DNA of 62,839 nucleotides. It comes from an uncultured Sphingosinicella sp. (lineage in GTDB: Bacteria > Pseudomonadota > Alphaproteobacteria > Sphingomonadales > Sphingomonadaceae). A program made the position numbers and the translations under genes. The stretch is taken from positions 1 through 62,839 of the forward strand of contig NZ_CADCWD010000055.1 of assembly GCF_902806315.1 (NCBI RefSeq). The letters are read 5' to 3'. Below, one piece after another: positions 40,531 to 62,839 of this stretch; positions within the stretch are counted from its first letter, which is position 1; each line of letters starts with the position of its first letter. Below the pieces are notes generated by a model that searched no databases, was not told the DNA's origin, and saw only the letters and a program-made list of their open reading frames with translations.

Positions 40531-40659
40531 ATGGTTGCCATTTTCACGGGCGCGGGTGCGGGGCTCGAGCGCGGATCGGCTGCGGCCATCTCCCTCACCT
40601 CCAGTAGCCTTGGCAGCTTCGGCCGCACAGTGGCCGCAATAGACCCGGTGAGCCCCTAA
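40531..40659 (+). pseudogene. 42-codon remnant of an RHS-like giant surface protein
   Basis: A short frame reads MVAIFTGAGAGLERGSAAAI and stops after 42 codons. I recall MVA-(I/L)-FTGAGTGFERGS as the N-terminus of very large RHS/YD-repeat or calcium-binding surface proteins in sphingomonads. A good ribosome-binding site (AAGGGAAGAGG) lies upstream. The similarity is lost after about 17 codons and the stop lies inside the murQ stop codon. This looks like the 5' end of a large gene left after a deletion or rearrangement. It could instead be a small real peptide. Confidence 0.5.
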
Positions 40660-41552
40660 AGCCGCCGCGGGTCCCGGGAGGCGAGAGCGGCGCGCAGGTT
40701 GTCGCCGCAGCTCTTCAACAGCGTCGCGGCCTCGTCCGGATCGGCTCCTTGGGCGATCAGGGAGGCTTGCTTGATGTTGCCGTCGGCGCGGGCGAGGGCT
40801 GCGGCGGCGGTTTCCAGGTCGGTGCCGCTGATCCGGGCGACCATCGCGGCGGCGCGGTTGCGCAGCTTGCGGTTCGACAGGCGCATGTCCACCATCAGGC
40901 CGTCATGGACCCGCCGCAGGCGGAGCATGACGGCGGTGGAGAAGGTGTTGAGCGCGATCTTCTGCGCGGTGCCGGCCTTCATGCGCGTGGAACCGGCGAC
41001 GACCTCCGGCCCGGTGTCGATGAGGATCGGGTGGGCGGCCGCTTCGAGCAGCGGGGTTTCGGGGTTGCTGGCGATCCCCACGGTCAGTGCTCCGGCGGCA
41101 GCTGCCGTTCGTACCGCCGCAACTGTATACGGCGTGCGCCCGCTGGCGGCGACGCCGATCACCACATCGGACCGGGTCAGCTTCTTATCGCGGATCAGCT
41201 CCTCCGCGGCGCCGGCATCGTCTTCTGCGCCCTCCACGCCCGTCAGGAGCGCCTGCTCACCGCCCGCGAGAGCGTAGACCAGCCGGTCGTCTCCCCAATT
41301 GAAAGTCGGGCCGAGCTCGACGCCGTCCAGCACCGCGAGGCGCCCCGAAGTGCCCGCCCCCACATAGACGAGGCGCCCTGTGCCGTCCTTCAGCCGCTCG
41401 GCCGCCGCATTCGCCGCAGCCGCGATGGCTGCGCCCGCGGCCTGCACCGCGGCCGCCGCCGCGAGCTGGGCCTCCAGCATCGCCTGCACCGCGTCCTGCG
41501 TCGGCCAAAGGTCGAGCGCGGCATAGCGCGGGCTGATCAACTCTGTGGAAAT
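40656..41552 (-). CDS. murQ: N-acetylmuramic acid 6-phosphate etherase
   Basis: MurQ cleaves the D-lactyl ether of MurNAc-6-phosphate to give GlcNAc-6-phosphate and D-lactate. The SIS-domain protein shows the family blocks LVYVGAGTSGRLAVLDGVEL, GVEGAEDDAGAA, VIGVAASGRTPYTV, and GPEVVAGSTRMKAGTAQK; both glutamates known to matter in E. coli MurQ have counterparts. I chose an ATT start at 41552 because AGGAGG lies six bases upstream and the product then begins (M)STELISPRYAALDLWP, the natural family N-terminus. An ATG 20 codons upstream gives an unlikely polar leader. It is divergent from the sugar kinase gene. Confidence 0.92.
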   Translation of the reverse strand: MSTELISPRYAALDLWPTQDAVQAMLEAQLAAAAAVQAAGAAIAAAANAAAERLKDGTGRLVYVGAGTSGRLAVLDGVELGPTFNWGDDRLVYALAGGEQALLTGVEGAEDDAGAAEELIRDKKLTRSDVVIGVAASGRTPYTVAAVRTAAAAGALTVGIASNPETPLLEAAAHPILIDTGPEVVAGSTRMKAGTAQKIALNTFSTAVMLRLRRVHDGLMVDMRLSNRKLRNRAAAMVARISGTDLETAAAALARADGNIKQASLIAQGADPDEAATLLKSCGDNLRAALASRDPRRL

Positions 41553-41653
41553 GCGCGGCCTCCTGTCATTCTCCCGCCCGCTATTATCTTTATTGGCAGC
41601 GGTGCGACACATTCTTAATCTGCCCTGGCGGGCGGCGGGGATAACAAGTGCAT

Positions 41654-42532
41654 ATGGAATATTACCTCGGCATCGACGCCGGCGGCACGCACACCCGGGC
41701 GCGGCTCGTCACGGGCGATGGCGAGGTCGTCGGAACGGGCGAGGGCGGGCCGGGCAATACGCGGATCGGAATGCCCGAAGCTCTTCAGGCGGTGGCTGAC
41801 GCCTATATGCAGGCCTTGGGCGAGGCGGGGCTCGGTGAGGAGCATCTCGGCTCGATCCGGGCCGGCCTCGGCATTGCCGGGCTCAACCGGCGCGGCACGC
41901 TGCCGAGCCTTCGGGAGCATGACTTCCCGTTCCGCTCGATCGCCTTTGCGAGCGATGCCGCGATCGCCAATCTGGGCGCCCATGCGGGCGGGGACGGCGC
42001 GATCGTGATCGTCGGAACGGGGAGCATCGGCTTCGCGCGGGTCGGCGAGGAGGTCTACACGATCGGCGGCTACGGCTTTCCCATCTCGGACGAGGGCAGC
42101 GGTGCCGATCTCGGGGTGAGAGCGATCAGGCGCTCATTGTGGGCGCGCGACGGGCGCATTCCGCACAGCGCGATGACGGAAGAGGTGCTGGATTATTTCC
42201 AGGGGTCGGCGGGCGAGATCGTCGATTGGACCGCGCGCGCGACGCCGACCGACTATGCCGTCTTCGCCCCGATGGTGATGGATTATGCGACCCAAGGAGA
42301 TCCGGTCGCCGAAGCGATCGTGCAGGGCGCGGCGCTGAGGCTCGACCGCCTGATCCGCGTGCTGCTCGATCGGGGCGCGCCGAGCTGCTGCCTGATGGGC
42401 GGCGTCGCCGCCCGGATGCGGGACTGGTTGGCAGCGAGCATTCGCGAGCGGCTCACCGAGCCCAAGGGGGACGCGCTCGACGGGGCGATCCTGCTCGCGC
42501 GGACGCGGGCGGCGGAGAAGGAGCTGGTCTAG
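41654..42532 (+). CDS. BadF/BadG-type amino sugar kinase (MurK/NagK-like)
   Basis: The product of about 292 residues belongs to the BadF/BadG/BcrA/BcrD ATPase family, with the phosphate motifs LGIDAGGTHTRARLV, FASDAAIANLGAH, and VIVGTGSIGFA, then GGYGFPISDEGSGADLG. This family contains GlcNAc kinases and MurK of Clostridium acetobutylicum, which phosphorylates both MurNAc and GlcNAc and sits next to murQ. The divergent murQ here suggests the same role. The ATG at 41654 is chosen; a GTG two codons earlier is possible. The last four bases overlap the convergent nagA. Confidence 0.85.
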   Translation: MEYYLGIDAGGTHTRARLVTGDGEVVGTGEGGPGNTRIGMPEALQAVADAYMQALGEAGLGEEHLGSIRAGLGIAGLNRRGTLPSLREHDFPFRSIAFASDAAIANLGAHAGGDGAIVIVGTGSIGFARVGEEVYTIGGYGFPISDEGSGADLGVRAIRRSLWARDGRIPHSAMTEEVLDYFQGSAGEIVDWTARATPTDYAVFAPMVMDYATQGDPVAEAIVQGAALRLDRLIRVLLDRGAPSCCLMGGVAARMRDWLAASIRERLTEPKGDALDGAILLARTRAAEKELV

Positions 42533-43653
42533 GCGATCCAGGTCCGGACGACCTGCTTGGCCCCGTCCATCAGGACGAGGTCGGCGCGAAGGCCAAGGCG
42601 AATCGAGCCGGTGACGGCTGAGAGGCCCATCGCGGCGGCGGGAACCTCGCTCGCCATGCGGACGGCGGTTTCGAAATCGACGCCCATCATGTCCTCTGCG
42701 TTGCGGACTGCTCCGGCCATATCGAGATCGGAGCCGGCGAGCGTGCCGTCGGGGCCGGTGCAGCGGCCGTTCTCGGCCACGATATGGGTGTTCCCGAGCC
42801 AGAACTCCTTCGTCTCGGAACCGACGGTCGGCATCGCATCGGTGACCAGCGCGAGGCGCTCGGCGCCTTTCGCGGCGAGCGCGACGCGCAGCGCGGCCGG
42901 GTGGACATGGTAACCGTCGACGATGAGGCCGCACCACGCGGTGCGGTCTTCCAAGGCGGCGCCGACCGCACCGGGCGCGCGGCTGCCGAGCTGGGTCATG
43001 GCATTGTAAAGGTGGGTGAAGCCACTGACGCCCTCGTCGAGACCGGTTCGGGTTTCTTCGTAGCTGGCGTTCGTGTGACCCGCGGCGACGACTACGCCGC
43101 GCGCCGCCAACTCTCGGATTGCGCCGGCCGGAGCGCGCTCCGGGGCGAGCGTTACGAGCGTTCGGCCGCGCTTAAGGGACGAGAGGAGGTCGATGGCGGC
43201 GTCGTCCAGGGTTCGGAACTTGGTCGCGTCGTGGATCCCTTTTTTATCGGGATTGAGGAACGGGCCTTCGATGTGGATGCCGAGGACGCCCGGCACTCCG
43301 CGCTCGATCGCCGCGTCGACGGCGGAGATGGCGCGGGCCACGACTTCGAGTTCGTCGCTGATGAGGGTGGGGAAGAAGCCCGTGGTGCCGAACCGGCGAT
43401 GCGCTTCGCCGATCGCGGCGATGCCCTCGACGGTAGGATGATCGTTGAACAACACCCCGCCGCCGCCATTCACCTGCAGGTCGATGAAGCCGGGGAGAAG
43501 GTCGCCCTCGACGTCCAACCGTTCCACACCGTTCGGGCAGTCGGTAGCGGGGACGATTGCGGAAATGATGCCGCCGTCGACCACGAGGCACCGGTCCGCT
43601 TCGAAGCCGGCCGGCGTGAGTACTCGGGTTGGGAGGAGAGCGAAGGCGCTCAT
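42529..43653 (-). CDS. nagA: N-acetylglucosamine-6-phosphate deacetylase
   Basis: NagA removes the acetyl group from GlcNAc-6-phosphate, the product of MurQ. The 374-residue protein has the amidohydrolase pattern of NagA: LPGFIDLQVNGGGGVLF (Q-x-N instead of H-x-H), GIHIEGPFLNP with the metal Glu, VAAGHTNA and HLYNAM with metal His residues, and ALVTDAMP with the catalytic Asp. Its start overlaps the upstream SIS-domain gene by ATGA, forming a two-gene operon, and its end overlaps the convergent kinase. Confidence 0.95.
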   Translation of the reverse strand: MSAFALLPTRVLTPAGFEADRCLVVDGGIISAIVPATDCPNGVERLDVEGDLLPGFIDLQVNGGGGVLFNDHPTVEGIAAIGEAHRRFGTTGFFPTLISDELEVVARAISAVDAAIERGVPGVLGIHIEGPFLNPDKKGIHDATKFRTLDDAAIDLLSSLKRGRTLVTLAPERAPAGAIRELAARGVVVAAGHTNASYEETRTGLDEGVSGFTHLYNAMTQLGSRAPGAVGAALEDRTAWCGLIVDGYHVHPAALRVALAAKGAERLALVTDAMPTVGSETKEFWLGNTHIVAENGRCTGPDGTLAGSDLDMAGAVRNAEDMMGVDFETAVRMASEVPAAAMGLSAVTGSIRLGLRADLVLMDGAKQVVRTWIA

Positions 43654-44702: not shown

Positions 44703-44811
44703 GCCCCGGCGCCTATCAGGCCGAAGTGGCGCCAGCAATCGCCCAGCAACGGCACGTTGTCACCCGCAGCCGCGTTCCGATATGCTGGCTGCAAAGGCCC
44801 CGGAGAGACGA

Positions 44812-46233
44812 ATGCACATTGCCGCGTCGAGAGTGAGCGCCGAGGCGACATCCTCGCTTCAGGCCGCGCTCGCGGCGGAGTTCGGGCCGCGGCTCCTGAA
44901 CAGCCCCAGCGCGCTCAGCCAATATGGGCGGAGCGAGGGTCATCATGGCGAGCATCTGCCCGATCTCGTCGTGCGCCCGACGAGCGTGGAGGAGGTGCAG
45001 CGGCTGGTCCGCGCAGCGCGGGAGTTCCGCGTTCCGGTCGTGCCTTATGGCGCCGGCACGTCGCTCGAGGGCAATGCCGCCTCCGTCGCAGGCGGGCTTT
45101 GCATCGACCTTTCGGCGATGGACCGCATCGTCGAGATCAGCCCGGAAGACATGCTGTGCGTGGTCGAACCCGGCGTCACGCGCGAGCAGCTCAATGCCGA
45201 GCTGAGGAGCACCGGCCTCTTCTTCCCCATCGATCCGGGCGCCAATGCCACCATGGCCGGCATGATCGCCACGCGCGCGAGCGGCACCAATGCGGTGCGC
45301 TACGGCACGATGCGGGAGAATACACTGGCGCTGAAGGTGGTGCTTCCCGACGGCACCCTCGTCCGCACCGGCTCGCGCGCCCGCAAGTCCGCCGCGGGAT
45401 ACGACCTCACCCACCTCTTCTTGGGCTCCGAGGGCACGCTCGGCATCACTGTGGAAGCGACGTTGCGGCTGCATGGCCAGCCGGAGACGGTGCTGGCCGG
45501 CACCTGGCCGTTCGAGACGCTGGAGGGGGCGGTGCATACCGTCATCGCCACGATCCAGTCCGGCGTCCCGGTCGCGCGGATCGAGCTCCTGGACGCGGCC
45601 GCGATCCGGGCCTGCAACCGGTTCTCGAACCTCGCGCTTCCCGAGCAGCCGACGCTGTTCATCGAGCTGCACGGCTCCGAAGGAGCGGTTCGCGAGCAGC
45701 TCGATCTGATGCAGACCTTCGGAAGCGAGCTCGGGGGTGGGACGCTCACCCGCGCTGTCGAGACCGAGGCGCGCTCGGCGCTGTGGAAAGCGCGGCACCA
45801 GGCGCTACCCGCCGCCCGCGCGATGCTGCCCAATTCGGTTACCTGGGTGACGGACGTTTGCGTCCCCATTTCGCACCTCGCCGACGCGATCGGGCGCGTG
45901 CAGGCGGAGGTGGAGCGCACGGGCCTCCTGGCTCCCATCCTCGGCCATGTCGGCGACGGCAACTTCCACGTCTTCTTCGTGCTCGCTCCCGACGACGAGC
46001 ACTCCTGGGCAAAGGCCCGGGCGATCAATGAGGCGATGGTCGAGCATGCGCTCTCGGTCGGCGGCACTTGCACGGGCGAGCACGGCATCGGCATCGGCAA
46101 GCGCGAGGCGATGCTGATGGAGCATGGCCCCGAAGCGGTGCAATTGATGCGGCGGCTGAAGGACGCGATCGACCCCGAAGGGCTGCTCAACCCTTCCAAG
46201 CTCTTCGGCGACAAAGCGGCGGAGACCCGCTAA
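44812..46233 (+). CDS. FAD-linked oxidase, probable D-lactate dehydrogenase
   Basis: The 473-residue protein has a PCMH-type FAD domain (VVRPTSVEEVQRLVRAAREF, VPYGAGTSLEGN, IDPGANATMAGMIATRASG) and a C-terminal FAD-oxidase domain with GHVGDGNFHVFF and TCTGEHGIGIGKREAM. This pattern is that of cytochrome-type D-lactate dehydrogenases and glycolate oxidase GlcD. D-lactate is the by-product of MurQ, encoded 3.2 kb away, so the D-lactate role is favoured. The ATG at 44812 has GGAGAG upstream; the longer open frame upstream overlaps the divergent SIS gene and is rejected. Confidence 0.88.
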   Translation: MHIAASRVSAEATSSLQAALAAEFGPRLLNSPSALSQYGRSEGHHGEHLPDLVVRPTSVEEVQRLVRAAREFRVPVVPYGAGTSLEGNAASVAGGLCIDLSAMDRIVEISPEDMLCVVEPGVTREQLNAELRSTGLFFPIDPGANATMAGMIATRASGTNAVRYGTMRENTLALKVVLPDGTLVRTGSRARKSAAGYDLTHLFLGSEGTLGITVEATLRLHGQPETVLAGTWPFETLEGAVHTVIATIQSGVPVARIELLDAAAIRACNRFSNLALPEQPTLFIELHGSEGAVREQLDLMQTFGSELGGGTLTRAVETEARSALWKARHQALPAARAMLPNSVTWVTDVCVPISHLADAIGRVQAEVERTGLLAPILGHVGDGNFHVFFVLAPDDEHSWAKARAINEAMVEHALSVGGTCTGEHGIGIGKREAMLMEHGPEAVQLMRRLKDAIDPEGLLNPSKLFGDKAAETR

Positions 46234-46263
46234 GCCTGCGCTCGAACGAACGAACCGCAGCCG

Positions 46264-47145
46264 ATGAACCTCCGCCATATCGAGATCTTCCACGCCGTTT
46301 ACGTCAACGGCTCCGTCAGCGCCGCAGCGCGTGCGCTGAACGTGTCGCAGCCGTCGGTGTCGAAGATGTTGCGCCATGCCGAATCCCTGCTGGGATTTCC
46401 GCTCTTCCAGAGGACCAGCGGCGGGCTCGTTCCGACGCAGGACGCGCATGTGCTCTTCACCGAGGTGAGCGAGATCCAAGACCGGGTTTATGCGCTGCGA
46501 GAGGCGGGCCGGAACCTGCGCCGCGGCGTTGGCGGCGTGCTCCGCGTCTCGGCGCTGCCCTCGCTCGCGCTCGACGCCATCCCGACGGCGGTGTCGCGCT
46601 TCCTGCGCACGCACAGCGACGTGAAGTTCGACCTCCAGACGGTGCATCACGACGATCTGCTGCGGAAGCTTTACGAGCGCGAGAGCGACATCGCGATCGC
46701 CTACCAGGTGCCGCCGGCAGCGCCGATCGGCCATCGCTGGCTTGGCGAGGGCGAATTGGTCGTGCTCTACCGGGAGGAGGACATGCCCGACGCGCCGCCG
46801 CGGATAGAGCTGGAGCAGCTTCGCGGCCGCCGCTTCATCAGCCTCGCCGCGAGCGGGCCGATCGGGCAGCTCTTCACTCAGGAACTGCAGCGTCTGGAGC
46901 TGGAGCTGGACGAGGTCGTCTCGGCCCGGACCTTCTACATCGCGAGCGCACTCGTTCGGCAGGGCGTGGGGATGACCGTGGTCGACAGCTTCACCGCCCA
47001 GGCCTCGCTCGTGCCGGGTCTCGCCATGCGCCCGCTGAAGCCGCCGCTCACCTTCGACATCCACGCCATGTTCCTGATCAACCGGCCCCCCGGCGCGCTC
47101 GCGACCGAGTTCCTGAAGACGCTGGGCCGCATCCTCGATGCATAA
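46264..47145 (+). CDS. LysR family regulator, probable DgcR
   Basis: The 293-residue protein has an N-terminal LysR helix-turn-helix (MNLRHIEIFHAVYVNGSVSAAARALNVSQPSVSKMLRHAE) and a periplasmic-binding-like effector domain (LRVSALPSLALDAIPTAVSRF, IAIAYQVPP). It is directly upstream of DgcN and DgcA homologues on the same strand. In the published DgcN-DgcA D-glutamate pathway a LysR protein called DgcR controls the genes. This position makes the same role likely, with D-glutamate as a possible effector. It lies 30 bases after the D-lactate dehydrogenase gene and may be read with it. Confidence 0.85.
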   Translation: MNLRHIEIFHAVYVNGSVSAAARALNVSQPSVSKMLRHAESLLGFPLFQRTSGGLVPTQDAHVLFTEVSEIQDRVYALREAGRNLRRGVGGVLRVSALPSLALDAIPTAVSRFLRTHSDVKFDLQTVHHDDLLRKLYERESDIAIAYQVPPAAPIGHRWLGEGELVVLYREEDMPDAPPRIELEQLRGRRFISLAASGPIGQLFTQELQRLELELDEVVSARTFYIASALVRQGVGMTVVDSFTAQASLVPGLAMRPLKPPLTFDIHAMFLINRPPGALATEFLKTLGRILDA

Positions 47146-47154
47146 CGAGCGGCT

Positions 47155-47177
47155 ATAGCGAGCGCCGCACTCGCTAT
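47155..47177. promoter_or_regulatory. Inverted repeat between the LysR gene and dgcN
   Basis: An 8-bp inverted repeat ATAGCGAG / CTCGCTAT with a seven-base loop lies just after the LysR stop and 38 bases before the dgcN start. It may be a LysR-type operator or an attenuating hairpin. It lacks a T-tract. Confidence 0.4.
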
Positions 47178-47215
47178 GCGTGGAGCTTGGAGGGTGTCGA
47201 TACGTTTCGGCCTCG

Positions 47216-48250
47216 ATGATCCCGGCGCCTTTTCTCGTTTATCTCGGCCACAGCGCGGATGCGCTCGGCATCAAGACTTCGCGCGGGGTCGCGACCTTCC
47301 GGCGTGAGGATTGCGTCGGCGAGTTCCGCTATGACGATTGCCCGATGACGCTCGGCCTGCCGCGCCTCGGGATGGCAGAAGCCGCGGCTGCCGGGGCGCG
47401 GACCCTGGTGCTGGGAGTGGCCAGCGCCGGCGGCAAGCTTCCGACCGATCTCGTCGACGATGCGGCGGCGGCGCTGGAAGCCGGCATGAACGTGGCGGCG
47501 GGCCTGCACGAGCGGCTCCGCGGCGAGCCGCGCCTCGTTGCGCTTGCGGCCGAGCGGGGGCTGCAGCTGTTCGATCTTCGCGAGCCGCCCGAGAACCTCA
47601 CAGTCGGAAAGGGCTATCCGCGAGCCGGGCACCGGCTGTTGACGGTGGGCACGGACTGCTCGGTGGGCAAGATGTATGCGACGCTCGCCCTCACCCGCGC
47701 CCTTCGCGAGCGCGGCATCGCTGCGGATTTCCGGGCCACCGGCCAGACCGGCATCCTGATCGCCGGCGAAGGCGTCCCGGTCGACGCGGTGGTGGCGGAC
47801 TTCATCGCAGGCGCGATCGAGCAGCTGGCGCCCGCACGCGACGATGACGGCTGGGACCTGATCGAAGGGCAGGGCTCGCTCTTCCACCCGTCCTTCGCCG
47901 GCGTGTCGATGGGCCTGCTCCACGGCGCCCAGCCCGAGGCGCTGGTGCTCTGCCATGAGCCCGGTCGCCCGCACATGCGCGGCATTCCCGGCCGCACGCT
48001 CCCGGAGCTCGCCGAATGCCTCGAGCGCAATCTCGAGGCCGCGCGGCTGACCAGCCCCGAAGTGCGCGCCGTCGGCGTTTGCCTCAACACGTCGGGCATG
48101 AGCCTCGAATCCGCCCTTCGCCTCTGCGCGAAGACGGAGGACCAGCTCGGCATCCCCTGCACCGATCCGATGGCCTTCGGAGTGGATGCGATTCTAGACC
48201 GGCTCCTATGCGTCGCACCCTCCACGCGCAGCACGATCGCTTCCCACTGA
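47216..48250 (+). CDS. dgcN: DUF1611 protein, D-glutamate N-acetyltransferase DgcN homologue
   Basis: The 344-residue protein belongs to DUF1611. It has LGHSADALGIKTSRGVATF at the N-terminus, a P-loop TDCSVGKM near residue 145, RATGQTGILIAGEG, and IEGQGSLFHPSFAGVS. DgcN homologues are reported to N-acetylate D-glutamate, after which DgcA epimerises N-acetyl-D-Glu to N-acetyl-L-Glu. The next gene is a DgcA-type epimerase that overlaps this gene by 43 bases. The ATG at 47216 is the first likely start; the in-frame codons upstream overlap the inverted repeat. Confidence 0.88.
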   Translation: MIPAPFLVYLGHSADALGIKTSRGVATFRREDCVGEFRYDDCPMTLGLPRLGMAEAAAAGARTLVLGVASAGGKLPTDLVDDAAAALEAGMNVAAGLHERLRGEPRLVALAAERGLQLFDLREPPENLTVGKGYPRAGHRLLTVGTDCSVGKMYATLALTRALRERGIAADFRATGQTGILIAGEGVPVDAVVADFIAGAIEQLAPARDDDGWDLIEGQGSLFHPSFAGVSMGLLHGAQPEALVLCHEPGRPHMRGIPGRTLPELAECLERNLEAARLTSPEVRAVGVCLNTSGMSLESALRLCAKTEDQLGIPCTDPMAFGVDAILDRLLCVAPSTRSTIASH

Positions 48251-49197
48251 CCCATCCGTTCCGGATCGCCCGCGGCGTGAAAACCGCCGCGGACGTGATC
48301 ACCGTGACGATTTTAGAACGGGATGTGACGGGGCAGGGCGAGGGCGTGCCGTACCCGCGCTATGGGGAGAGCGTCGAAAGCACGCTTGCGCAAATCCAGG
48401 AGGTGCGGGCGCTTGTCGAGAGCGGAGGGGAGCGGACCGACTTCCTGAGGGCAATGGAGCCCGGCGCCGCGCGCAATGCGATCGACTGTGCCTTGTGGGA
48501 CCTGGAGTCTCGCCGCTCGGGGCGAGATGTCGCGGCCATGATCGGGGCGCCCGCGCCGGAGCGGCTGCCGAGCGCGCTCACGATCGTGATCGATACGCCG
48601 GAGGCAATGGCCCGTGCGACCGCGATCGTGGCCCATGCGCCTTTGCTCAAGGTCAAGGTCGACGCGAACGACCCCGAGGCGCAGATCCGGGCCGTGCGGG
48701 CGGCGGCTCCCCAAGCGGCCTTGATCGTCGATCCCAATGAGAGCTGGGACCGGAAGCTGGTCGAGGCCATGCAGCCGCTGCTCGCGGAACTGCGGGTGGC
48801 GCTCCTTGAGCAGCCGGTTCCGGCCGGCAAGGACGCATGGCTGGAGGGCTTCCGGCCCGCCGTTCCGATCTGCGCGGACGAGTCCGTCCATGTCGCGGCC
48901 GACCTGGAGACGATCGCGCGCCGCTATCAGGTGGTGAACGTGAAGCTCGACAAGTCCGGTGGGCTGACGGCGGGGCTGGAGCTTGCCCATGCCGCCCGGG
49001 CGCGAGGGCTCTGCCTCATGACCGGCTGCATGGTCAGCTCCTCGCTTTCGATTGCCCCGGCGCTCCACGTCGCCCGCATGTCCGACTTCGTCGATCTTGA
49101 CGGTCCGATCTGGCTCAGGGAGGATCGGCCCGGCGGCGTGAGGGATGAAGGCGGCCTGCTCAATCCTCCCGCCGCGGGTTTCTGGGGAACGGCATGA
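48208..49197 (+). CDS. dgcA: Dipeptide/N-acyl-glutamate epimerase DgcA (enolase superfamily)
   Basis: The 329-residue protein is a muconate-lactonising-subgroup enolase-superfamily epimerase. Catalytic residues are K148-V-K150, metal ligands D175, E201 and D224, and a second-face Lys at about K246, with a C-terminal DLDGP (D-x-D) typical of L-Ala-D/L-Glu epimerases. It could epimerise L-Ala-D-Glu from peptidoglycan and N-acetyl-D-glutamate from DgcN. The ATG lies 43 bases inside dgcN and the stop overlaps the D-aminoacylase by ATGA, so expression is tightly coupled. Confidence 0.92.
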   Translation: MRRTLHAQHDRFPLTHPFRIARGVKTAADVITVTILERDVTGQGEGVPYPRYGESVESTLAQIQEVRALVESGGERTDFLRAMEPGAARNAIDCALWDLESRRSGRDVAAMIGAPAPERLPSALTIVIDTPEAMARATAIVAHAPLLKVKVDANDPEAQIRAVRAAAPQAALIVDPNESWDRKLVEAMQPLLAELRVALLEQPVPAGKDAWLEGFRPAVPICADESVHVAADLETIARRYQVVNVKLDKSGGLTAGLELAHAARARGLCLMTGCMVSSSLSIAPALHVARMSDFVDLDGPIWLREDRPGGVRDEGGLLNPPAAGFWGTA

Positions 49198-53864: not shown

Positions 53865-53988
53865 GAAGGCGCGGCCGCAACGGCACAAGCTGCGGCTCGG
53901 CCGCCATGCGCCCACGTTATGATCGCGGCAAAGGTCTGTATGGCGCGCAGTGCATTGCTCCTGCCGCGGTTCGCTCTACGGTCGGTGT

Positions 53989-55455
53989 ATGGAACGACAT
54001 GGATTGAAGTGGCGGGCGGCCCTGCTGGCGCTCGCGATCGGGACGGCGACGCCGGCGCTTGCGCAGGAGCCGCTTCAACAGCGCGTGGAGGCAAAGCTGG
54101 CCGAGGCAGGGCCCGGTCTGCGCTTCGGCATCGTCGTGGCGACGGAGGATGGCCGCGAGATCCTGGCAATCAACCCGGACGAGCGCTTCATCCCCGCGTC
54201 CAACACCAAGATGTTCACGACGGCGGCCGCTTTCGCGACGCTGAAAGGCCTCGACCAGCCGGACGCTGCGGGCGGCGCTTCTGTGCGACTGGACAGCGAG
54301 GGGAGGCGGGTCCCCGATGTGGTGCTGAAGGGACATGGCGACGCGCGGCTGTCGAGCGCGCCGAACTGCGTCTCCAACTGTCTCGCCGCGCTTGCCGACG
54401 CGGTGGCGGCGCGGACCAAGCTGGTTGGCGACGTGGTTGGCGACGACAGCCTGTTCCCGGACCAGCGCTGGAGCCCCGGGATGAGCTGGAACAACATCCC
54501 CTCGCGCTACGGCACCGCCACTTCGGCGCTGACGGTCGACGACAATGAACTGTCGATCCGCGTTCTTCCCGGGGCGGTAGGCCAGCCGCCCAGGATCGAG
54601 CTTCTGCCTTATTACGAGGTGGACAACCGGGCGGTGACCGTCACTTCGGGTGCCACAAGCCTCAGCTACGAGCGGATGCCCCAGAGCGATCAGGTTCGCC
54701 TCACCGGCACGATCGCGACGGGGGCCGAGCCCCACACGCTTCTCCTCTCGGTCGACGATCCCGCGCATTTCGCCGCCTGGCGGATGAAGTCCCTGCTTGA
54801 AGCGCGCGGGGTGAAGGTGACCGGGAAGGTGAACGCGCGTCACCGGCCCGTCTCGCAGATCGACGACCCGAAGGCACGCAATGGCGCTCCGCCGCCGCGC
54901 GTGCCGATACCGGAGCCTCTCGCCAAGCTCACGCCGCCGCCGCTTCGCGACGACCTCACGCACATCAACAAGGTCAGCCAGAACCTGCACGCCGAGCTGA
55001 TGCTCCGCCGCGTCGGCCATGCCAACGGCACCGGCTCGATCGCCGACGGCATTGCGGGCGTGCGCGACATGCTCGACCAAGCCAAGGTACCCCGCACCGC
55101 CTGGGACCTGTCTGACGGGTCGGGCATGTCGACCTACAATCGTCTGGCTCCTCGCTCCGTCGTCACGTTCCTGCGCTGGGTCTCGGCTCAGCCTTGGGGC
55201 GCCGGCTGGCGCGAGACCCTGCCGATCGCGGGGGTGGACGGCACGCTGACGCGGCGCTTCAAGGGCACGAGCCTGGAACGCCGGCTCTTCGCCAAGACGG
55301 GCACGCTGAACGCGACCAATGCGCTTTCAGGCTACATGATCGGGAAGAGCGGGCAGACTTTGCTGTTTTCGGCTTATGCCAACGATGTCCCGGAAGGGGT
55401 AAGCGCGACCCGGACCATGGATGCCGCGCTGGAGCTGATCGCGTCCGAAAACTAG
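53989..55455 (+). CDS. dacB: D-alanyl-D-alanine carboxypeptidase/endopeptidase (PBP4)
   Basis: The 488-residue protein has a signal peptide (WRAALLALAIGTATPALAQ) and all PBP4 motifs: ASNTK (S-x-x-K) near residue 65, SDGSGMSTYN (S-x-N region) and AKTGTLN (K-T-G) toward the C-terminus, with the extra inserted domain between the first two motifs that marks DacB. It removes terminal D-Ala and can cleave D-Ala-DAP crosslinks in the periplasm. The start at 53989 is preceded by a short G-rich stretch. Its stop overlaps the convergent serine hydrolase by four bases. Confidence 0.93.
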   Translation: MERHGLKWRAALLALAIGTATPALAQEPLQQRVEAKLAEAGPGLRFGIVVATEDGREILAINPDERFIPASNTKMFTTAAAFATLKGLDQPDAAGGASVRLDSEGRRVPDVVLKGHGDARLSSAPNCVSNCLAALADAVAARTKLVGDVVGDDSLFPDQRWSPGMSWNNIPSRYGTATSALTVDDNELSIRVLPGAVGQPPRIELLPYYEVDNRAVTVTSGATSLSYERMPQSDQVRLTGTIATGAEPHTLLLSVDDPAHFAAWRMKSLLEARGVKVTGKVNARHRPVSQIDDPKARNGAPPPRVPIPEPLAKLTPPPLRDDLTHINKVSQNLHAELMLRRVGHANGTGSIADGIAGVRDMLDQAKVPRTAWDLSDGSGMSTYNRLAPRSVVTFLRWVSAQPWGAGWRETLPIAGVDGTLTRRFKGTSLERRLFAKTGTLNATNALSGYMIGKSGQTLLFSAYANDVPEGVSATRTMDAALELIASEN

Positions 55456-56456
55456 AGAGCGTCGAACGCCTTCACGACCGCATCGCCGGTCGCTCGCCTC
55501 AGATCCATGATGCTCGTCTCGCGGTGGCGGGTGGGGTGCACCCGGTTCGTCAGGAGCGTCCAGGCGAGGCCGCGATCGAAGTCTACCCAAAGGCCCGTGC
55601 CGGTGAAGCCCGTATGGCCGATCGTCTCGGGCGAGCAGGCGTCGCCGCCGTGCCAGCCGTCGAAACGTATCTCCCAGCCGCAGGTGCGATGGGCGTGGAC
55701 GGGCGTGCGGATCGCCTTCAGCGTCGCCTCCGATGCGCCGCTCCCGTCGAGCAGTCCTTGCGCAAAATCGAGGACGCCGGCCACGGTGCCGAACAGCCCC
55801 GCATGGCCCGGCGCCCCGCCCAGAGCCCAGGCATTTTCGTCATGCACTTCGCCTTTCATCACCCGGCCGCGCCAGGTGCAGGCCTCGGTTGCGACGGCTG
55901 GTCCGGGCGGCGGGCCGTAGCTCACCCCGGCGCCCAGCGGCCACGCTGAAAGCGGCTCTCCGGTTAAGCGCTCGATGGCGATGCCAAGCAGGATGAAGTT
56001 GATGTCCGAGTAAGCGGGTGGAACGTGCCGCCACTCGCGTTGCAGGACGAAGGCGCGAAGGCGGGCCGGATCGTCGCCATAGGTGTAGATCGGCTCTACC
56101 GCCGGCAGAAAGGTGCGGTGGGCGAGGCAGTCGCGGAAGGTAAGCGTCCGCTCGGGCGCGCCCGCCACATCATACTGGCGGAGGTCCGGGATCGCGTCGG
56201 TGAGCGGCCGATCAAGGTCGATGCGCCCTTGCTCGGCGAGCGTGAGGATGATGCTGGTGGTGGCGATCACCTTCGAAACGGAAGCGAGGTCGAACCAGTG
56301 TTCCTCCGTGAGCGCCTCCACCTCCGGAAAGAGCGCGGCCATCCCGCTATGCCGGAAAGACCGCCGCCCGTCCGCGGTGACGATGCCGAGCGTTGCTCCG
56401 GGTATCTGGCCGTCTAAGATGGCCGCGCTGGCTGGCGCGTAGGCGGCGTCGATCAT
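55452..56456 (-). CDS. Class C beta-lactamase-like serine hydrolase coupled to ampG
   Basis: The 334-residue protein has the AmpC/EstB-type motifs: LASVSKVIATT (S-x-x-K, Ser about residue 59), PAYSDINF (Y-S-D for Y-x-N), and GHTGFTG (H-T-G instead of K-T-G). The H-T-G variant is common in esterases and peptidases of the family rather than true AmpC. No signal peptide is visible (MIDAAYAPASAAILDGQIPG), so it may act in the cytoplasm. Its start overlaps ampG by ATGA. This suggests it acts on muropeptides brought in by AmpG. The upstream open frame is a shadow of ampG. Confidence 0.85.
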   Translation of the reverse strand: MIDAAYAPASAAILDGQIPGATLGIVTADGRRSFRHSGMAALFPEVEALTEEHWFDLASVSKVIATTSIILTLAEQGRIDLDRPLTDAIPDLRQYDVAGAPERTLTFRDCLAHRTFLPAVEPIYTYGDDPARLRAFVLQREWRHVPPAYSDINFILLGIAIERLTGEPLSAWPLGAGVSYGPPPGPAVATEACTWRGRVMKGEVHDENAWALGGAPGHAGLFGTVAGVLDFAQGLLDGSGASEATLKAIRTPVHAHRTCGWEIRFDGWHGGDACSPETIGHTGFTGTGLWVDFDRGLAWTLLTNRVHPTRHRETSIMDLRRATGDAVVKAFDAL

Positions 56457-57973: not shown

Positions 57974-58198
57974 CTGCCGTCATCGGGACCTCTCGGAAGT
58001 TTGTTGCCGCACGCTCGACTGCCGACGGCGATCAGTCAACGGCAGCACTGTTGCACACGCGTCACGGCCCAGTGGCATTCGTGTCGCCCGGATGGCGAGA
58101 GGTTATGGCTGGGCCAAGAGAAACTATGGCGGATCGTGACATTCTTGCTACTTAATACCGGGGATCACGCAGGAATTGCGGATTTGAGGGGATGTCAC
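57974..58198. promoter_or_regulatory. Divergent promoter region of ampG and the TonB receptor
   Basis: This 225-base region between two divergent starts must hold both promoters. I see no clear consensus boxes. A GTGACAT near 58136 and an inverted ATGTCAC at 58192-58198, next to the receptor start, form a spaced inverted repeat that may be a regulatory site. No other gene is visible here. Confidence 0.4.
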
Positions 58199-61100
58199 AT
58201 GCTTCGTCGTACGTCGTTGAATCCAGTTCTGTTTTCTGGAGCGGCCTTTGCGGCGCTCGCGATGTCGATGGCCGCTCCCGCGGCAGCTCAGACGGTGCCG
58301 GTCGAAGAAGAGCCTGTGGGCACCGCTGCCAGCGCGGCAACGGAGACGAGCGGCGTTGAAAATCGCGAGGACATCGTCGTCACCGGCACGCGCATCGTGC
58401 GCGACGGCTTCCAGGCGCCGACCCCGCTGACCGTCCTGACCGAGGAGGACATCGAAAACGGTTCGCCGACGAACAACATCGCCGATTTCGTCAACACCCT
58501 GCCGTCCCTCGCCGGCTCGACGCGCCCCTCCAACTCGCGCCTGAACCTCTCGAGCGGGCAGGCGGGCATCAACGTGCTGAACCTGCGCAACCTGGACAAC
58601 AACATCGGCGGGACCCGCACGCTCGTGCTGGTCAATGGGCGCCGCTCGGTGGCCTCGGCGATCACCGGGGTCGTCGACATCAACACCATCCCCCAGGCGC
58701 TGATCTCGCGCGTCGAGGTGGTGACCGGCGGCGCCTCCGCCGCCTATGGCTCGGACGCGGTCGCGGGCGTGGTCAACTTCATCCTCGACAACAAGTTCAA
58801 AGGGCTGAAGCTCGAGGGCGACGCCGGCATCACCACATATGGCGACGGCTTCAACTATTCGTTCGGTGCCGCGGGCGGAATGTCGTTCGCGGGCGGGCGC
58901 GGTCACATCCTGCTGAGCGGCGAAGTCGCTCATCGTGACGGCATCTTGCAGGTCGATCGCGACTACAACGAGATCGGGTTCCTTCGCTTCGAGAACCCGG
59001 CCTATCTTGCCAACCAGAACTCGGGTGCGCCGCAGTTCATCTTCGTGCGCGACGCGGGCCCGGTCAATTCCACCCCCGGGAGCATCATCACCAACTCCGC
59101 CGGCGGCGCGGCAAACCGGCTGCGCGGCACCTTTTTCGGTCCGGGCGGGGTGGTGAACCAGTTCGTCTTTGGCGACCTGACCTTCCCTTCGCCCACCGGC
59201 AATGCCGTGCCGCTGCGTACGCGGGGAGGCGACAGGCGGGTCAACGATTCGGGGCGCAACATCGGCCTGGAGCCGAGGGACGACCGCTACGGCGTGTTCG
59301 GCCGCATCAGCTACGAGATCACCGACGGCATCGAGCTGTTCGCTGAAGCCGCGTACAACAAGCAGGAAGTGTTGTTCAACGCCGGGCCGAACCTCCAGAC
59401 CGGTATCGTGCTCAATGCGACCGGCTGCACGCAGACGCCGGTGCCGATCACCTGCAACGCCTTCCTGCTCAACACGCTGGGCGCGGCACGGCTGCAGGGC
59501 ATTACCAGCGTGACCATTGCTACCACGTCGGCCGACCTGCCGTTCCGTGGGATCAACAACAAGCGCGAGGTGCAGCGTTACCTGATCGGCGCTGAGGGCG
59601 AGTTCGACGCGTTTGGCAACACGGCGCGCTGGGACGTGTATGGTCAGTATGGCCGCGCCGATCTACGCGAGCAGCTCCGCGACATTCAGAACATCGCGCG
59701 CATCAACGCCGCCCGGGATGCGGCCTTTGCGCCCGCCGGCAGCGGCTTTCCGACAGGCTCGATCCAGTGCCTGATCAATGTCGATGCCAATCCGAACAAC
59801 AACGACCCGGCGTGCGTGCCGTTGAACCGCCTCGGGCTCGGCGTCGCCAATCCGGCGGCGATCGATTACGTGCTGGGCGATCCGCGGCGGGACCAGGTGC
59901 TCGAACAGACCGTCGCCGGCGTGAACTTATCGGCGACGCCTTTCGCCACCTGGGCAGGCGACGTCAGCGTCGCGATCGGCGCGGAATATCGCAAGGAAGA
60001 GGTCAGCGGTTTCGTCCCTGACGAGTTCCAGCCGGTGCCGATCCGCGATGCCAACGGCAACGTCACCGGAGCCACCAACCGCTTTTCGGTGGGCAACTAC
60101 CTGCCCAGCTTCGGGTCGTTCGACGTCAAGGAAGCCTATCTCGAGACCGTGGTTCCGCTCGGGCTCGGCCTTGAGGTCAACGGCGCGGTGCGTGCGACCG
60201 ACTATTCAACCGCAGGTTACGTCACGACGTGGAAGGTGGGCGCCACCTGGCAGCCGATCGACGATATCCGTCTGCGTGCCGCGCGTTCGCGGGACATCCG
60301 CGCGCCCAACCTCAACGATCTCTTCCAGGCGGGCACGGCCAACAGCGACTCCGTCGGCAATCCCGGCTTTGTGAACGGCACCAGCCCGCCCTTCGTCGCG
60401 CCGGGCCAGCCACCGCAGGCGGGTTACGCCTATTCCGGCTTCGCGACGGGCAACCAGGACCTGACGCCGGAAAAGTCCAATCAGTGGAACGTCGGCGCAG
60501 TGTTCTCGCCGACCTTCCTGCCCGGTTTCAATCTTGCGGTCGATTATTTCAACATCAAGGTGAACAGCGGGATCAGCTCCTTCAGCGCACAGCAGATCGT
60601 CAATCTGTGCTTCCTTGGGGAGCAAGACTTCTGCGACGCGATCAGCGTCGATCCTTCGCGCACGCAGAACCCGGCGCAGCCCTATCTGCTCATCCGGAAT
60701 AAGCCGTTCAACGCAGCGAGCCAGAAGGTCCGCGGCGTCGACATCGATGCGTCCTACCGCCTGCCGCTCAATCGGCTGTTCGACGCCGCCGATGGCGCGT
60801 TTACGCTTCGGGGTCTTGCCACCCACTATATCGAGAACCGCTTCGACAGCGGCGTCCCTGGAACGGTGGTGCTCAACACGGCGGGCGTCAACGGCGGCCA
60901 GGCCAGCACGCCGAGCTGGATCTACCGGGTCAGCGCCGCCTACGATACCGACGCTTTCGGCATCACCGCGATCGGTCGCGGCGTCAGCGCCGGCAAGTAT
61001 GTGTCCAACGGCATAGAGTGCCAGACGACCTGCCCCGTTTCGACCGTCAATGCGCCGACCTATGAAAGGAACCGGGTCAGCGGCGCGTTCTACGTCGACC

Positions 61101-61282
61101 TCAATATCACGTCGAAATTCGACGCGCTCGGCCGCGGCGATGGGGAGTTCTTCATCAACGTCACCAACCTGTTCGACTCCAATCCGATCCTCTTGCCGGA
61201 GACCGGACTCGCGGCGAACAGCACCTATTCGGATCTGCTCGGGCGGGCCTTCCGCGTCGGAATGCGGCTCCGGCTGAACTGA
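58199..61282 (+). CDS. TonB-dependent receptor, candidate muropeptide receptor
   Basis: The 1027-residue outer membrane protein has a signal peptide (LFSGAAFAALAMSMAAPAAAQ), a TonB-box-like DIVVTGTRI, a plug with LVLVNGRRSV and VEVVTGGASAAYGSDAVAGVVNFI, and a beta-barrel ending in FRVGMRLRLN. Receptors with this LVLVNGRR plug are common in sphingomonads and often linked to peptides or glycans. It is divergent from ampG and followed by a terminator. Its place suggests uptake of cell-wall fragments, but specificity cannot be read from sequence. The open frame that extends 1.8 kb upstream is antisense to ampG and is not coding. Confidence 0.88.
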   Translation: MLRRTSLNPVLFSGAAFAALAMSMAAPAAAQTVPVEEEPVGTAASAATETSGVENREDIVVTGTRIVRDGFQAPTPLTVLTEEDIENGSPTNNIADFVNTLPSLAGSTRPSNSRLNLSSGQAGINVLNLRNLDNNIGGTRTLVLVNGRRSVASAITGVVDINTIPQALISRVEVVTGGASAAYGSDAVAGVVNFILDNKFKGLKLEGDAGITTYGDGFNYSFGAAGGMSFAGGRGHILLSGEVAHRDGILQVDRDYNEIGFLRFENPAYLANQNSGAPQFIFVRDAGPVNSTPGSIITNSAGGAANRLRGTFFGPGGVVNQFVFGDLTFPSPTGNAVPLRTRGGDRRVNDSGRNIGLEPRDDRYGVFGRISYEITDGIELFAEAAYNKQEVLFNAGPNLQTGIVLNATGCTQTPVPITCNAFLLNTLGAARLQGITSVTIATTSADLPFRGINNKREVQRYLIGAEGEFDAFGNTARWDVYGQYGRADLREQLRDIQNIARINAARDAAFAPAGSGFPTGSIQCLINVDANPNNNDPACVPLNRLGLGVANPAAIDYVLGDPRRDQVLEQTVAGVNLSATPFATWAGDVSVAIGAEYRKEEVSGFVPDEFQPVPIRDANGNVTGATNRFSVGNYLPSFGSFDVKEAYLETVVPLGLGLEVNGAVRATDYSTAGYVTTWKVGATWQPIDDIRLRAARSRDIRAPNLNDLFQAGTANSDSVGNPGFVNGTSPPFVAPGQPPQAGYAYSGFATGNQDLTPEKSNQWNVGAVFSPTFLPGFNLAVDYFNIKVNSGISSFSAQQIVNLCFLGEQDFCDAISVDPSRTQNPAQPYLLIRNKPFNAASQKVRGVDIDASYRLPLNRLFDAADGAFTLRGLATHYIENRFDSGVPGTVVLNTAGVNGGQASTPSWIYRVSAAYDTDAFGITAIGRGVSAGKYVSNGIECQTTCPVSTVNAPTYERNRVSGAFYVDLNITSKFDALGRGDGEFFINVTNLFDSNPILLPETGLAANSTYSDLLGRAFRVGMRLRLN

Positions 61283-61324
61283 GCTGGCGGCCGCGGCTTT
61301 GCTCTGAAGAGCGCTAACATCGAG

Positions 61325-61359
61325 AAGGCCGCGGCTGTCATGGCCGCGGCCTTTGTTTT
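61325..61359 (+). terminator. Rho-independent terminator after the TonB receptor
   Basis: An 11-bp perfect stem (AAGGCCGCGGC with GCCGCGGCCTT) with a TGTCATG loop is followed by TGTTTT. It lies 43 bases after the receptor stop, so lysA downstream is probably transcribed from its own promoter or by read-through. Confidence 0.85.
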
Positions 61360-61411
61360 GCCTCGGAAGACCCTAATTGAAGCCCCGACAGCGCCGGGCG
61401 AAGGAAAAGAA

Positions 61412-62686
61412 ATGACGGATCACTACCCGCTGCGGGACGGCATCGTGCATTGCGAGGACGTGCCGCTGCCGCTGATCGCACGGGAAGTTGGCACGCCGGT
61501 CTTCGTTTACTCCACTGCGGCGATGCAGGATCGGGCGCGGGAGCTCACCGCTGCTCTCTCGCCGCTCGACAATCCGCTGATCGCCTATGCGGTGAAGGCG
61601 AACCCCAATGCGGCGGTGCTCACCACGCTCGCGGCCGAGGGCCTCGGCGCGGACGTGGTCTCGGGCGGCGAATATCGGCGCGCGCGCGCGGCGGGCGTGG
61701 CGGCCGAGAAGATCGTCTTTTCGGGCGTCGGCAAGACCGCGGCCGAGATGGCGGTCGCGCTGGAGGGCGGGCTTTGCCAGTTCAACCTGGAGTCCGTGCC
61801 CGAAGCCGAGATGCTGTCCGAAGTCGCGCAGTCCATGGGGCGGGTGGCTCCCGTCGCTTTCCGCGTCAATCCCGATGTGGAAGCAGGCTCGCATGCCAAG
61901 ATCTCCACCGGCGCCGCGCACAACAAGTTCGGAATCCCCATCGGCGACGCACCGGCCGCGTGCGCCCGCGTCCGCGAGCTTCCGGGGCTGAAGCTGAGGG
62001 GCCTTGCTGTCCATATCGGCAGTCAACTCACCAGCCTCTCGCCCCTGGAGCGCGCCTTCGAGAAGGTCGGCGCAATGATCGCGCGGCTCCGTACCGAGGG
62101 GCACGACATTGCCACGGCCGATCTCGGCGGCGGCCTCGGCCTCCAATATGATCCGTCCGCGCCCACGCCGCCCACGCCCGCGGCCTATGGCGCCATGGTC
62201 GCCCGCGTCACGCGCGGCTGGAACGTGCGACCGATCTTCGAGCCGGGCCGCCTGATCGTCGGCGATGCCGGGGTGCTGCTGACCGAGGTGATCCGGGTGA
62301 AGCCGGGCGCCACCTGTCCCTTCGTAATCCTGGACGCGGCCATGAACGATCTGATGCGCCCCAGCCTCTACGATGCCTGGCATGGCATCGACGCGGTGGC
62401 GCCCAATGGCCAGCAGATCGTCGCCGACGTGGTGGGGCCGGTCTGCGAGACCGGGGACACGTTCGCCGTCGCCCGAAAGATGGACCAAGTGGGTCCGGGC
62501 GACTTGACGATCATCCGCACCGCCGGCGCTTATGCCGCGACGATGGGCAGCACCTATAATAGCCGGCCGTTAACGCCCGAAGTGCTGGTGAACGGAAGCG
62601 ACTGGGCGGTGGTGCGCGAGCGGCAGGATGTGGAGGCGTTCCTCCGGGACGAGAGCATCCCTAACTGGCTCGCCCGCGCTAGTTGA
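61412..62686 (+). CDS. lysA: Diaminopimelate decarboxylase
   Basis: LysA converts meso-diaminopimelate to L-lysine and CO2. The 424-residue PLP fold-type III enzyme shows AYAVKANP with the PLP lysine at K62, the AVHIGSQ substrate segment, GGGLG phosphate-binding loop, [15 protein letters not shown] with the catalytic Cys, and [13 protein letters not shown]. The ATG at 61412 is preceded by AAGGA and begins the usual N-terminus [10 protein letters not shown]. It follows a terminator and overlaps the convergent partial hydrolase gene by eight bases. It may be the biosynthetic enzyme, but the place next to the receptor, AmpG and DacB also fits breakdown of peptidoglycan DAP. Confidence 0.94.
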
Positions 62687-62839
62687 GCCTGGCGGCAAGC
62701 CACTCCTCGACCGCCATATAGGCGCTGCGCCCGGGCGGCGGCTCGGCAGGATCGTTGGCGGCGAAATAGGCGATCCCGACGCTGCGCTTGCGATCGATCC
62801 AGAGGCCGGAGCGCACGCCATAGGCCTCGCCGGCATGAC
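62679..62839 (-). CDS. Serine hydrolase (beta-lactamase-like), C-terminal part
   Basis: The minus-strand frame that is open to the window edge reads [20 protein letters not shown] and continues to a TAG at 62679. H-A-G-E is the H-x-G form of the third active-site motif in beta-lactamase-like esterases and D-aminopeptidases, and [16 protein letters not shown] is the usual last strand region. Only the last 53 codons are in the window. It is a second serine hydrolase in the locus besides the one coupled to ampG. A different open frame over the same bases that begins with ATG near 62836 has no family similarity. Confidence 0.75.

Follow-up and report, generated by a model that had tools for sequence, protein, structure and literature searches.

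Clusters of genes around murQ have already been described in Escherichia coli and Bacillus subtilis, so that the original prediction made for the DNA considered here, in which recycling genes were held to be only scattered in model bacteria, was mistaken on this point. The locus compared with these clusters comprises 16 complete genes (40656-62686) on a contig of 62,839 nt from an uncultured Sphingosinicella sp. (NZ_CADCWD010000055.1; the whole stretch is termed the window). It is a variant of the known murQ clusters and of receptor-linked utilization loci, and it quite probably serves muropeptide utilization, with a LysR-linked core for uptake and D-glutamate (D-Glu) metabolism and an accessory branch for the N-acetylmuramic acid (MurNAc) sugar.

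In E. coli murR/murQ-murP-yfeW, as here, murQ, a MurNAc importer and a hydrolase (PBP4B, of the family of the serine hydrolase designated serH1 in the window) adjoin one another, but import and phosphorylation are by a phosphotransferase system (PTS), and the 10 kb read there contain neither a TonB receptor nor AmpG, and no enzyme of D-Glu or D-lactate. AmiE of B. subtilis is presumably of the beta-lactamase fold, and ybbC is taken to encode NamZ. The B. subtilis genes murQ-murR-murP-amiE-nagZ-ybbC also form a MurNAc catabolic cluster with an amidase, AmiE, whereas, according to the available part of PMC5061867, they belong to a Gram-positive organism with extracellular AmiE and NagZ and a PTS, and number six without a peptide branch. 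In the murTKQ genes of Tannerella forsythia, a transporter, a MurNAc kinase and MurQ are likewise together, but the available part of PMC10465942 presents three genes of a MurNAc auxotroph, in an operon with neither a D-Glu branch nor LysR. The DgcN-DgcA pathway of D-Glu has been invoked in Shewanella (PMC10845958, in the part available); here both proteins exceeded the equivalog cut-offs but, unlike in the known pathway, were associated with a TonB receptor and AmpG through their position and candidate regulation. The Caulobacter nag clusters are alphaproteobacterial uptake loci that likewise include a receptor, NagA and NagB, but they serve N-acetylglucosamine (GlcNAc), with PTS and GntR, and Caulobacter uses a MurU pathway in place of MurQ, as far as described in the available part of PMC13046382. 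With polysaccharide utilization loci the window cluster shares a receptor, an inner transporter, exported hydrolases, cytoplasmic catabolism and a local regulator, but its peptidoglycan substrate is putative, and no SusD and no glycoside hydrolase or other glycan-cleaving enzyme was present among its annotated genes. These also contained no PTS gene (the genome was not searched for PTS). Among open-licence full texts and listings, none dealing with a peptidoglycan locus of sphingomonads was found; the available part of PMC6987092 contains a xylan locus, not a peptidoglycan locus, and in that of PMC6403190 Sphingobium appears only in family tables.

Conserved linkage among sphingomonads

Gene families were assigned by Pfam and NCBIfam profile searches of the window proteins, and all those named in the original prediction were recovered in place. 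Starts given with ~ were placed by eye from the sequence and homologues, and signal-peptide-like starts and the cell location of proteins were judged by eye. The core consists of a LysR-type regulator gene (46264-47145, + strand; PF00126/PF03466); dgcN for a D-Glu N-acetyltransferase (~47216-48250, +; NF041892, 506.6 bits versus a cut-off of 480); dgcA for an N-acetyl-D-Glu racemase (~48217-49197, +; NF042940, 427 bits versus 400); genes for a D-aminoacylase-family amidohydrolase with a signal-peptide-like start (49194-50759, +; PF07969) and an SDF-family symporter of the glutamate/dicarboxylate type (50756-52006, +; PF00375, 343 bits); dacB for PBP4, a DD-carboxypeptidase/endopeptidase with a signal-like start (~53989-55455, +; PF02113; TIGR00666, 204 bits versus 108); serH1 for a serine hydrolase of the beta-lactamase fold (55452-56456, -; PF00144); ampG2 for a paralogue of the AmpG-family muropeptide permeases (56453-~57949, -; TIGR00901); and the gene for a TonB-dependent outer-membrane receptor (~58199-61282, +; PF07715, PF00593). 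DgcA had been predicted to be an L-Ala-D-Glu epimerase; it was reassigned, as it fell below the L-Ala-D/L-Glu epimerase cut-off (PRK15129, 312 bits versus 343) and passed the racemase model instead. In comparison with PDB entries, the D-aminoacylase-family protein scored 221 bits with D-aminoacylase and 191 bits with N-acyl-D-glutamate deacylase. Overlaps of 4 bp between same-strand neighbours (dgcA/D-aminoacylase, D-aminoacylase/symporter, serH1/ampG2 and nagA/nagB of the sugar branch) indicate an operon-like arrangement.

A scan with a serH1 alignment, one genome per species, gave at least 562 relatives in 596 candidate stretches, of which the best 80 loci were used. Seventy-eight had a sphingomonad name (mostly Sphingomonas, Sphingobium, Sphingopyxis, Sphingosinicella and Polymorphobacter, the last taken by us as a sphingomonad) and two were labelled only as alphaproteobacterial or proteobacterial metagenome-assembled genomes. 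Neighbours were counted within 10 kb of serH1 at matches above 100 bits, and the counts are lower bounds, as some loci are truncated by the ends of their contigs (11 of the 80 being shorter than 20.9 kb). Besides serH1 itself (80), these loci contained ampG (78), D-aminoacylase (67), dacB (66), receptor (65), symporter (61), dgcA (55), dgcN (46) and LysR (40) genes, a penicillin-acylase-fold gene (38), genes for a second serine hydrolase (23), the exported amidohydrolase (22), an S9 peptidase (18) and PhyH (10), and lysA (6). By comparison, 24 control genes from window positions 654-35123 gave a single match in all 80 loci; thus, the linkage is beyond chance. Confinement of the cluster to one genome, which would have spoken against the original prediction, was therefore not found; its genes travel together in many sphingomonads, with conserved linkage in shuffled order.

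Gene order varied by genus, being kinase-Dld-nagA-nagB-murQ-GntR-ampG-serH1-dacB-acylase-receptor in Sphingobium and LysR-dgcN-dgcA-symporter-ampG-serH1-dacB-acylase-receptor in Sphingopyxis. Genes that stay together despite changed order are usually functionally linked. Closer relatives were examined in a set of 60 genomes (own genome included) and a genus set of 26 (G000 to G025). The window-type AmpG was found in 15 of the 26 genus genomes, with DgcN no more than 13 kb away in 14 of these 15. Three had the row murQ-kinase-LysR-dgcN-dgcA-D-aminoacylase-symporter-dacB-serH1-ampG-receptor (G003, G015 and G016), and ten further AmpG2 loci had the core with variations, including lysA in nine, the S9 peptidase and PhyH genes in eight each, and loss of the symporter in two (G017 and G025). 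G000 encoded, in addition, a more divergent DgcN (47% identity; C95:3456-4412), with a dgcA-like gene nearby.

Candidate LysR-type box at dgcN and the receptor gene

Upstream of dgcN, 14 genus genomes shared the motif CATArCG-N3-GGCTATrGC with at most 3 mismatches, the ideal palindrome being CATAGC-N5-GCTATG; T-N11-A is the shape of LysR-type sites. In the window this box was located at nt 47141-47159 (+), and the adjacent LysR-type protein is its candidate reader. When each stretch of ~20-63 kb was scanned with a matrix built on the remaining 13 genomes, the dgcN site ranked first in 13 of the 14 genomes, the window included, and second in G013, while the best site other than that of dgcN was upstream of the TonB receptor gene in all 14. 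The corresponding window site, second-best with 14.6 bits, was located between ampG2 and the receptor gene (58091-58109, +), and the third-best, with 13.4 bits, in the divergent region between the exported amidohydrolase gene and dacB (53903-53921, -). Column-shuffled motifs (12 matrices) fell within the 400-bp region upstream of the receptor gene in 0 to 2 of the 14 genomes; in this test the region upstream of ampG was substituted for G025, whose receptor was under the match threshold and in which a different TonB-receptor-like protein is encoded there.

The receptor box was kept in four genomes in which the receptor gene is turned round, its upstream region being common with the acylase gene, and in two genomes with a different receptor. 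In the latter, G025 (L047:11302-14298) and G017 (L049:11743-14775), a different TonB-receptor-like protein was encoded beside ampG with the upstream box retained; identity was 35-37% over ~260 aa at the N-terminal end, versus 60-100% in the other 12 genomes. The receptor thus appears to have been exchanged under one candidate regulator.

Among 73 held-out loci (7 of the 80 were left out as matching training genomes), one of the top two sites was located upstream of dgcN in 30 of 41 cases, the penicillin-acylase-fold gene in 24 of 35, the receptor gene in 28 of 58, murQ in 8 of 16 and nagB in 8 of 9, the last two sharing one common region. Lower proportions were observed for ampG (13/71), dacB (8/59) and serH1 (5/73), and none for D-aminoacylase (0/60) and dgcA (0/48). 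Upstream regions of LysR, ampG and dacB, each set aligned, gave no clear conserved box. The neighbouring LysR protein is predicted to bind the box and probably governs the D-Glu operon and the receptor jointly.

The penicillin-acylase-fold hydrolase (L033:14428-16818 and homologues), with a Tat-like start by eye, was absent from the window cluster; its gene often adjoined that of the receptor, using a common box-bearing upstream region, and its product might cut an amide bond of the wall or of a signal. In L098 and relatives, the box-like site of the eight nagB loci was between nagB and murQ, near a GntR/UTRA gene; it could reflect common descent without function.

The hydrolase serH1 and the second AmpG

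No signal peptide was recognized by eye in serH1, which possessed the motifs SVSK at 59 (SxxK, S59-K62), YSD at 149 and HTG at 281. It shared 28% identity over 303 aa with E. coli PBP4B (YfeW), including the blocks VHDE, GHAGLF and GHTG, and on the basis of this comparison with PBP4B it is of the AmiE/PBP4B type, although in the window it is not next to murQ. A structural model had a pLDDT of 59 with 15 close sequences and 82.6 with 32; the latter model was assigned by Foldseek to the serine beta-lactamase/DD-peptidase fold, with no AmiE or PBP4B in the best 50 of 367 matches (E ≤ 0.001). The modelled fold leaves the chemistry undecided.

In a phylum sample, serH1 was found in 10 of 398 genomes (E ≤ 1e-40), five from its own family, counting the own genome, and five from a single other family of Alphaproteobacteria. 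Every one of the five in that other family had a murA-like gene, kinase, murQ, a peptide-type ABC transporter, serH1 and an AnmK-like gene in a row, with two further genes separating kinase and murQ in one genome; the names of the transporter and the murA-like gene were read from the sequence, and AnmK was assigned by 28-30% identity to an AnmK passing the cut-off. That row (L178-L183) starts with the murA-like gene. Since serH1 adjoins two unrelated importers and AnmK, which needs anhydroMurNAc free of peptide, amidase is the simplest reading. serH1 is thus a candidate cytoplasmic muramoyl-L-alanine amidase or muropeptide peptidase, cleavage of the amide being most likely and peptide trimming the alternative. 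Its role as a simple replacement of AmpD was rejected, as all 26 genomes tested had Amidase_2 (AmpD-type) genes. The muropeptide reading of the locus draws both on PBP4B, the serH1 homologue in the E. coli murQ operon, and on the row of the other family with murQ, kinase and AnmK. A wider proposal, put forward tentatively and at somewhat less than even chance, is that of a widespread sphingomonad LysR-controlled peptidoglycan-utilization locus, the hallmark of which would be a novel family of muropeptide amidases, cytoplasmic and of the beta-lactamase fold, travelling with the importer of the lineage, either AmpG2 or an ABC transporter next to AnmK.

In all 78 of the 80 loci that had both genes, ampG and serH1 were on the same strand with a gap of 0-125 bp. 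Another AmpG exceeding the cut-off was encoded elsewhere in 14 of the 15 genus genomes with AmpG2 (on C8 in the own genome; split in the 15th). In an AmpG tree, 25 cluster copies were on one side of a branch with 100/100 support, apart from 17 others; the non-cluster sequences were diverse with very long branches, and the separation alone is used here.

Sugar branch, proposed pathway and alternative explanations

The sugar branch comprised murQ for MurNAc-6-phosphate etherase (40656-41612, -; NF003915, 334 bits versus a cut-off of 168), a gene for a BadF-fold kinase of the NagK/MurK type, a candidate GlcNAc/MurNAc kinase (~41654-42532, +; PF01869), nagA for GlcNAc-6-phosphate deacetylase (42529-43653, -; TIGR00221, 285 bits versus 226), a gene for a NagB-II-like glucosamine-6-phosphate deaminase of the SIS type (43650-~44666, -; NF046059), and one for an FAD-dependent D-lactate dehydrogenase of the LDHD type (~44812-46233, +), which among PDB entries matched D-lactate dehydrogenase best (460 bits, versus 232 bits for the highest-scoring glycolate oxidase). 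Compared with solved structures, the kinase scored 159 bits with PDB 1zc6 and 79 bits with the MurNAc/GlcNAc kinase 8zo3. For T. forsythia MurK and human NagK, the residue positions that govern access of MurNAc are given in the available part of PMC10465942. By eye, the kinase motifs ASD at 101 and GGYG at 140 would lie at the MurK specificity positions and no bulky residue occupies the positions governing access; these residues would permit MurNAc use without demonstrating it.

This branch is accessory, because murQ exceeded the cut-off in only 8 of the 60 relatives (own genome included) and was found in 18 of the 80 loci, and no box was near it in the window. The kinase was also found in 18 loci and the LDHD-type dehydrogenase in 3. 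A D-lactate dehydrogenase of the Dld type was found in Sphingobium-type clusters (one tested, 856 bits versus 391), with similar genes in 8 of the 80 loci; it is a different enzyme acting on the same MurQ product, and a dehydrogenase of either type was near murQ in 11 of the 18 murQ loci. In G016 (L034:17928-19082), a gene for a D-threonine-aldolase-like PLP enzyme overlapped murQ, as did a similar-looking gene in G003.

Genome-wide questions were answered by family search at a genome completeness of 95.8%, so that absences are no proof. NagZ, AmpD, LdcA and AnmK had been noted as lacking from the window; the first three types were recovered elsewhere in the genome, NagZ on C33, Amidase_2 (AmpD-type) genes on C46 and C91, and S66 (LdcA-like) genes at C55:110910 and on C58, while AnmK was found by family search in none of the 26 genus genomes, own genome included; of the 60 relatives searched, 26 had AnmK, none of them belonging to the genus. 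NamZ was encoded on C72. As NamZ is present and AnmK was not found, the kinase and MurQ are likely to be fed by MurNAc rather than anhydroMurNAc, and wall turnover in the genus may follow a MurNAc route.

Reactions predicted from the enzyme families can be arranged as follows. Cell-wall fragments would be imported into the periplasm by the TonB receptor, where PBP4, the D-aminoacylase and other exported hydrolases would trim cross-links and D-residues; the symporter would take up released glutamate-type products and AmpG2 sugar-bearing muropeptides. In the cytoplasm, serH1, the gene of which overlaps ampG2, would most likely cut the peptide from MurNAc, or else trim it. D-Glu would be converted to L-Glu via DgcN, DgcA and a deacetylase, and meso-diaminopimelate (DAP) to lysine via LysA. 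MurNAc would be phosphorylated by the NagK/MurK-type kinase, the phosphate processed by MurQ to GlcNAc-6-phosphate and D-lactate, the former taken to fructose-6-phosphate by NagA and NagB and the latter oxidized by the FAD enzyme, with LysR beside dgcN probably controlling the D-Glu operon and the receptor together. Muropeptides as substrates of the receptor and of AmpG2 are suggested by this gene context. Dead bacterial wall constitutes a major reservoir of organic carbon and nitrogen, and D-amino acids are persistent in both soil and sea. If the scheme is correct, a common group of environmental bacteria would import muropeptides through the outer membrane and burn them by a dedicated and regulated system, sugar and peptide together; serH1 would represent a candidate for a new family of amidases, and the presence of a second AmpG beside another one would allow scavenging to be distinguished from recycling.

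Several observations weigh against muropeptide utilization by a single system. AmpG2 (341.8 bits) was slightly below the TIGR00901 cut-off of 350, its orthologues of G015 and G016 scoring ~350 bits; the kinase (NagK_SO3507 model, 252 bits versus 370) and the NagB-II-like protein (NF046059, 324 bits versus 430) were below theirs. The fold of serH1 also includes esterases and acyltransferases, and the Amidase_2 genes mentioned above were present throughout the genomes tested. Most copies of the locus lacked the sugar branch (among the 80, murQ 18, nagA 9 and nagB 9), and none of the 12 best box-like window sites was near the sugar genes. NamZ was present in all 26 genus genomes, cluster or no cluster, and none of the annotated genes in the window cluster encoded an exo-muramidase. 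A wall role is not evident for the exported amidohydrolase, S9 peptidase and PhyH genes, and the window lysA was the sole copy over the cut-off in its genome. Only kinase-ampG-serH1 was kept in Sphingomonas adhaesiva and S. ginsenosidimutans (L131 and L138), ampG-serH1 of G022 had neither receptor nor dacB in the 20 kb read, and G017 and G025 had another TonB receptor and no symporter. Finally, locus and box counts come from related sequences and hence are not independent tests.

The locus might instead be two adjoining modules, one for MurNAc/GlcNAc sugar (murQ to D-lactate dehydrogenase) and a separate one for D-Glu and peptide (LysR to lysA), which is possible though doubtful. The surroundings of murQ, read in all 7 other genomes with murQ over the cut-off, revealed two separate block types, so that the window is a union of two blocks: G022 and G023 had murQ-kinase-nagA-nagB-D-lactate dehydrogenase without the other half within the stretch read, whereas G003, G015 and G016 had murQ-kinase with the other half and no nagA, nagB or D-lactate dehydrogenase nearby; G037 and G058, of other families, had looser versions of the murQ locus. 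Moreover, no murQ exceeded the cut-off in 10 of the 14 genomes of the genus in which AmpG2 is near DgcN, and the lack of a nearby box in the window sugar genes fits such a division. However, kinase, Dld, nagA, nagB and murQ directly adjoin ampG2-serH1-dacB in Sphingobium, as do murQ, D-lactate dehydrogenase and kinase in Sphingomonas sp. IC-11 and S. mucosissima; murQ and kinase are within the serH1 row of another family, and the box-like site recurs between nagB and murQ. The original prediction was mostly upheld insofar as it describes a conserved locus; a single system is firmly indicated for the LysR-linked core, with a candidate box common to the D-Glu operon and the receptor, and more weakly for the accessory sugar branch.

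Recycling of the cell's own wall without scavenging is unlikely. MurQ, NagA, AmpG and PBP4 are families of the recycling type, and recycling in Caulobacter employs AmpG, NagZ and AmpD (PMC13046382, in the part available), but the locus AmpG is a second one, separated in the tree and accompanied by another elsewhere, the TonB receptor gene bears the same box as dgcN, and only 15 of the 26 genus genomes have this AmpG, so that an optional nutrient system fits better. Feeding on wall fragments, though putative, is the best reading of the gene context. Import by the core of some other D-Glu or D-amino-acid compound, such as poly-gamma-glutamate or D-peptides, with AmpG2 and serH1 drifted in specificity, is quite unlikely: DgcN/DgcA, D-aminoacylase and symporter require D-Glu only, AmpG2 is under its family cut-off, the best solved relatives of the receptor are vitamin B12, colicin I and siderophore receptors and two genomes have another receptor, yet PBP4, murQ and the MurNAc-kinase-type gene, together with serH1 beside AnmK in another family, indicate peptidoglycan. 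The combination of LysR, AmpG and a protein of the beta-lactamase fold recalls AmpR-AmpC-AmpG, and class C fold matches were obtained, but a beta-lactam response locus is highly improbable. The likeness is superficial, serH1 lacks a signal peptide by eye and is far below beta-lactamase cut-offs (best class C model, 41.8 bits versus 825), and the box adjoins the D-Glu operon and the receptor rather than serH1 directly.

The remaining cluster genes encode an exported amidohydrolase with a signal-like start (52008-~53864, -; PF01979), weakly similar to Xaa-Pro dipeptidases (NF051886, 135 bits, below the cut-off of 500), and LysA, a DAP decarboxylase (~61412-62686, +; TIGR01048, 417 bits versus 298). 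As no other copy was over the cut-off in its genome, a purely catabolic extra copy was ruled out there, and lysA probably also serves lysine synthesis; the cluster copy was accompanied by another over the cut-off in G002, G005, G009, G014, G020 and G024 and was alone in G017, G018 and G025. The window ends within the gene for a second serine hydrolase, lipoprotein-like by eye (62679-62839, -; C-terminal part), which is complete at L031:1679-2875 (PF00144, 160 bits; AmpH model, 57 bits, below the cut-off of 266). To its right are a subtilase gene and then genes that by eye are unrelated. To the left of the cluster (35201-40369), a TonB receptor gene and a GH43 arabinanase-type gene form a separate arabinan-type locus, not part of it. 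The large murQ locus of G058 also encoded AnmK, M19 dipeptidase, NlpC/P60, an epimerase-like MR_MLE protein, a MurR/RpiR-type regulator and LysA, as well as a lipoprotein-like protein of 1024 aa (L044:7200-10274) composed of a GH3 (NagZ-like) domain and NamZ.

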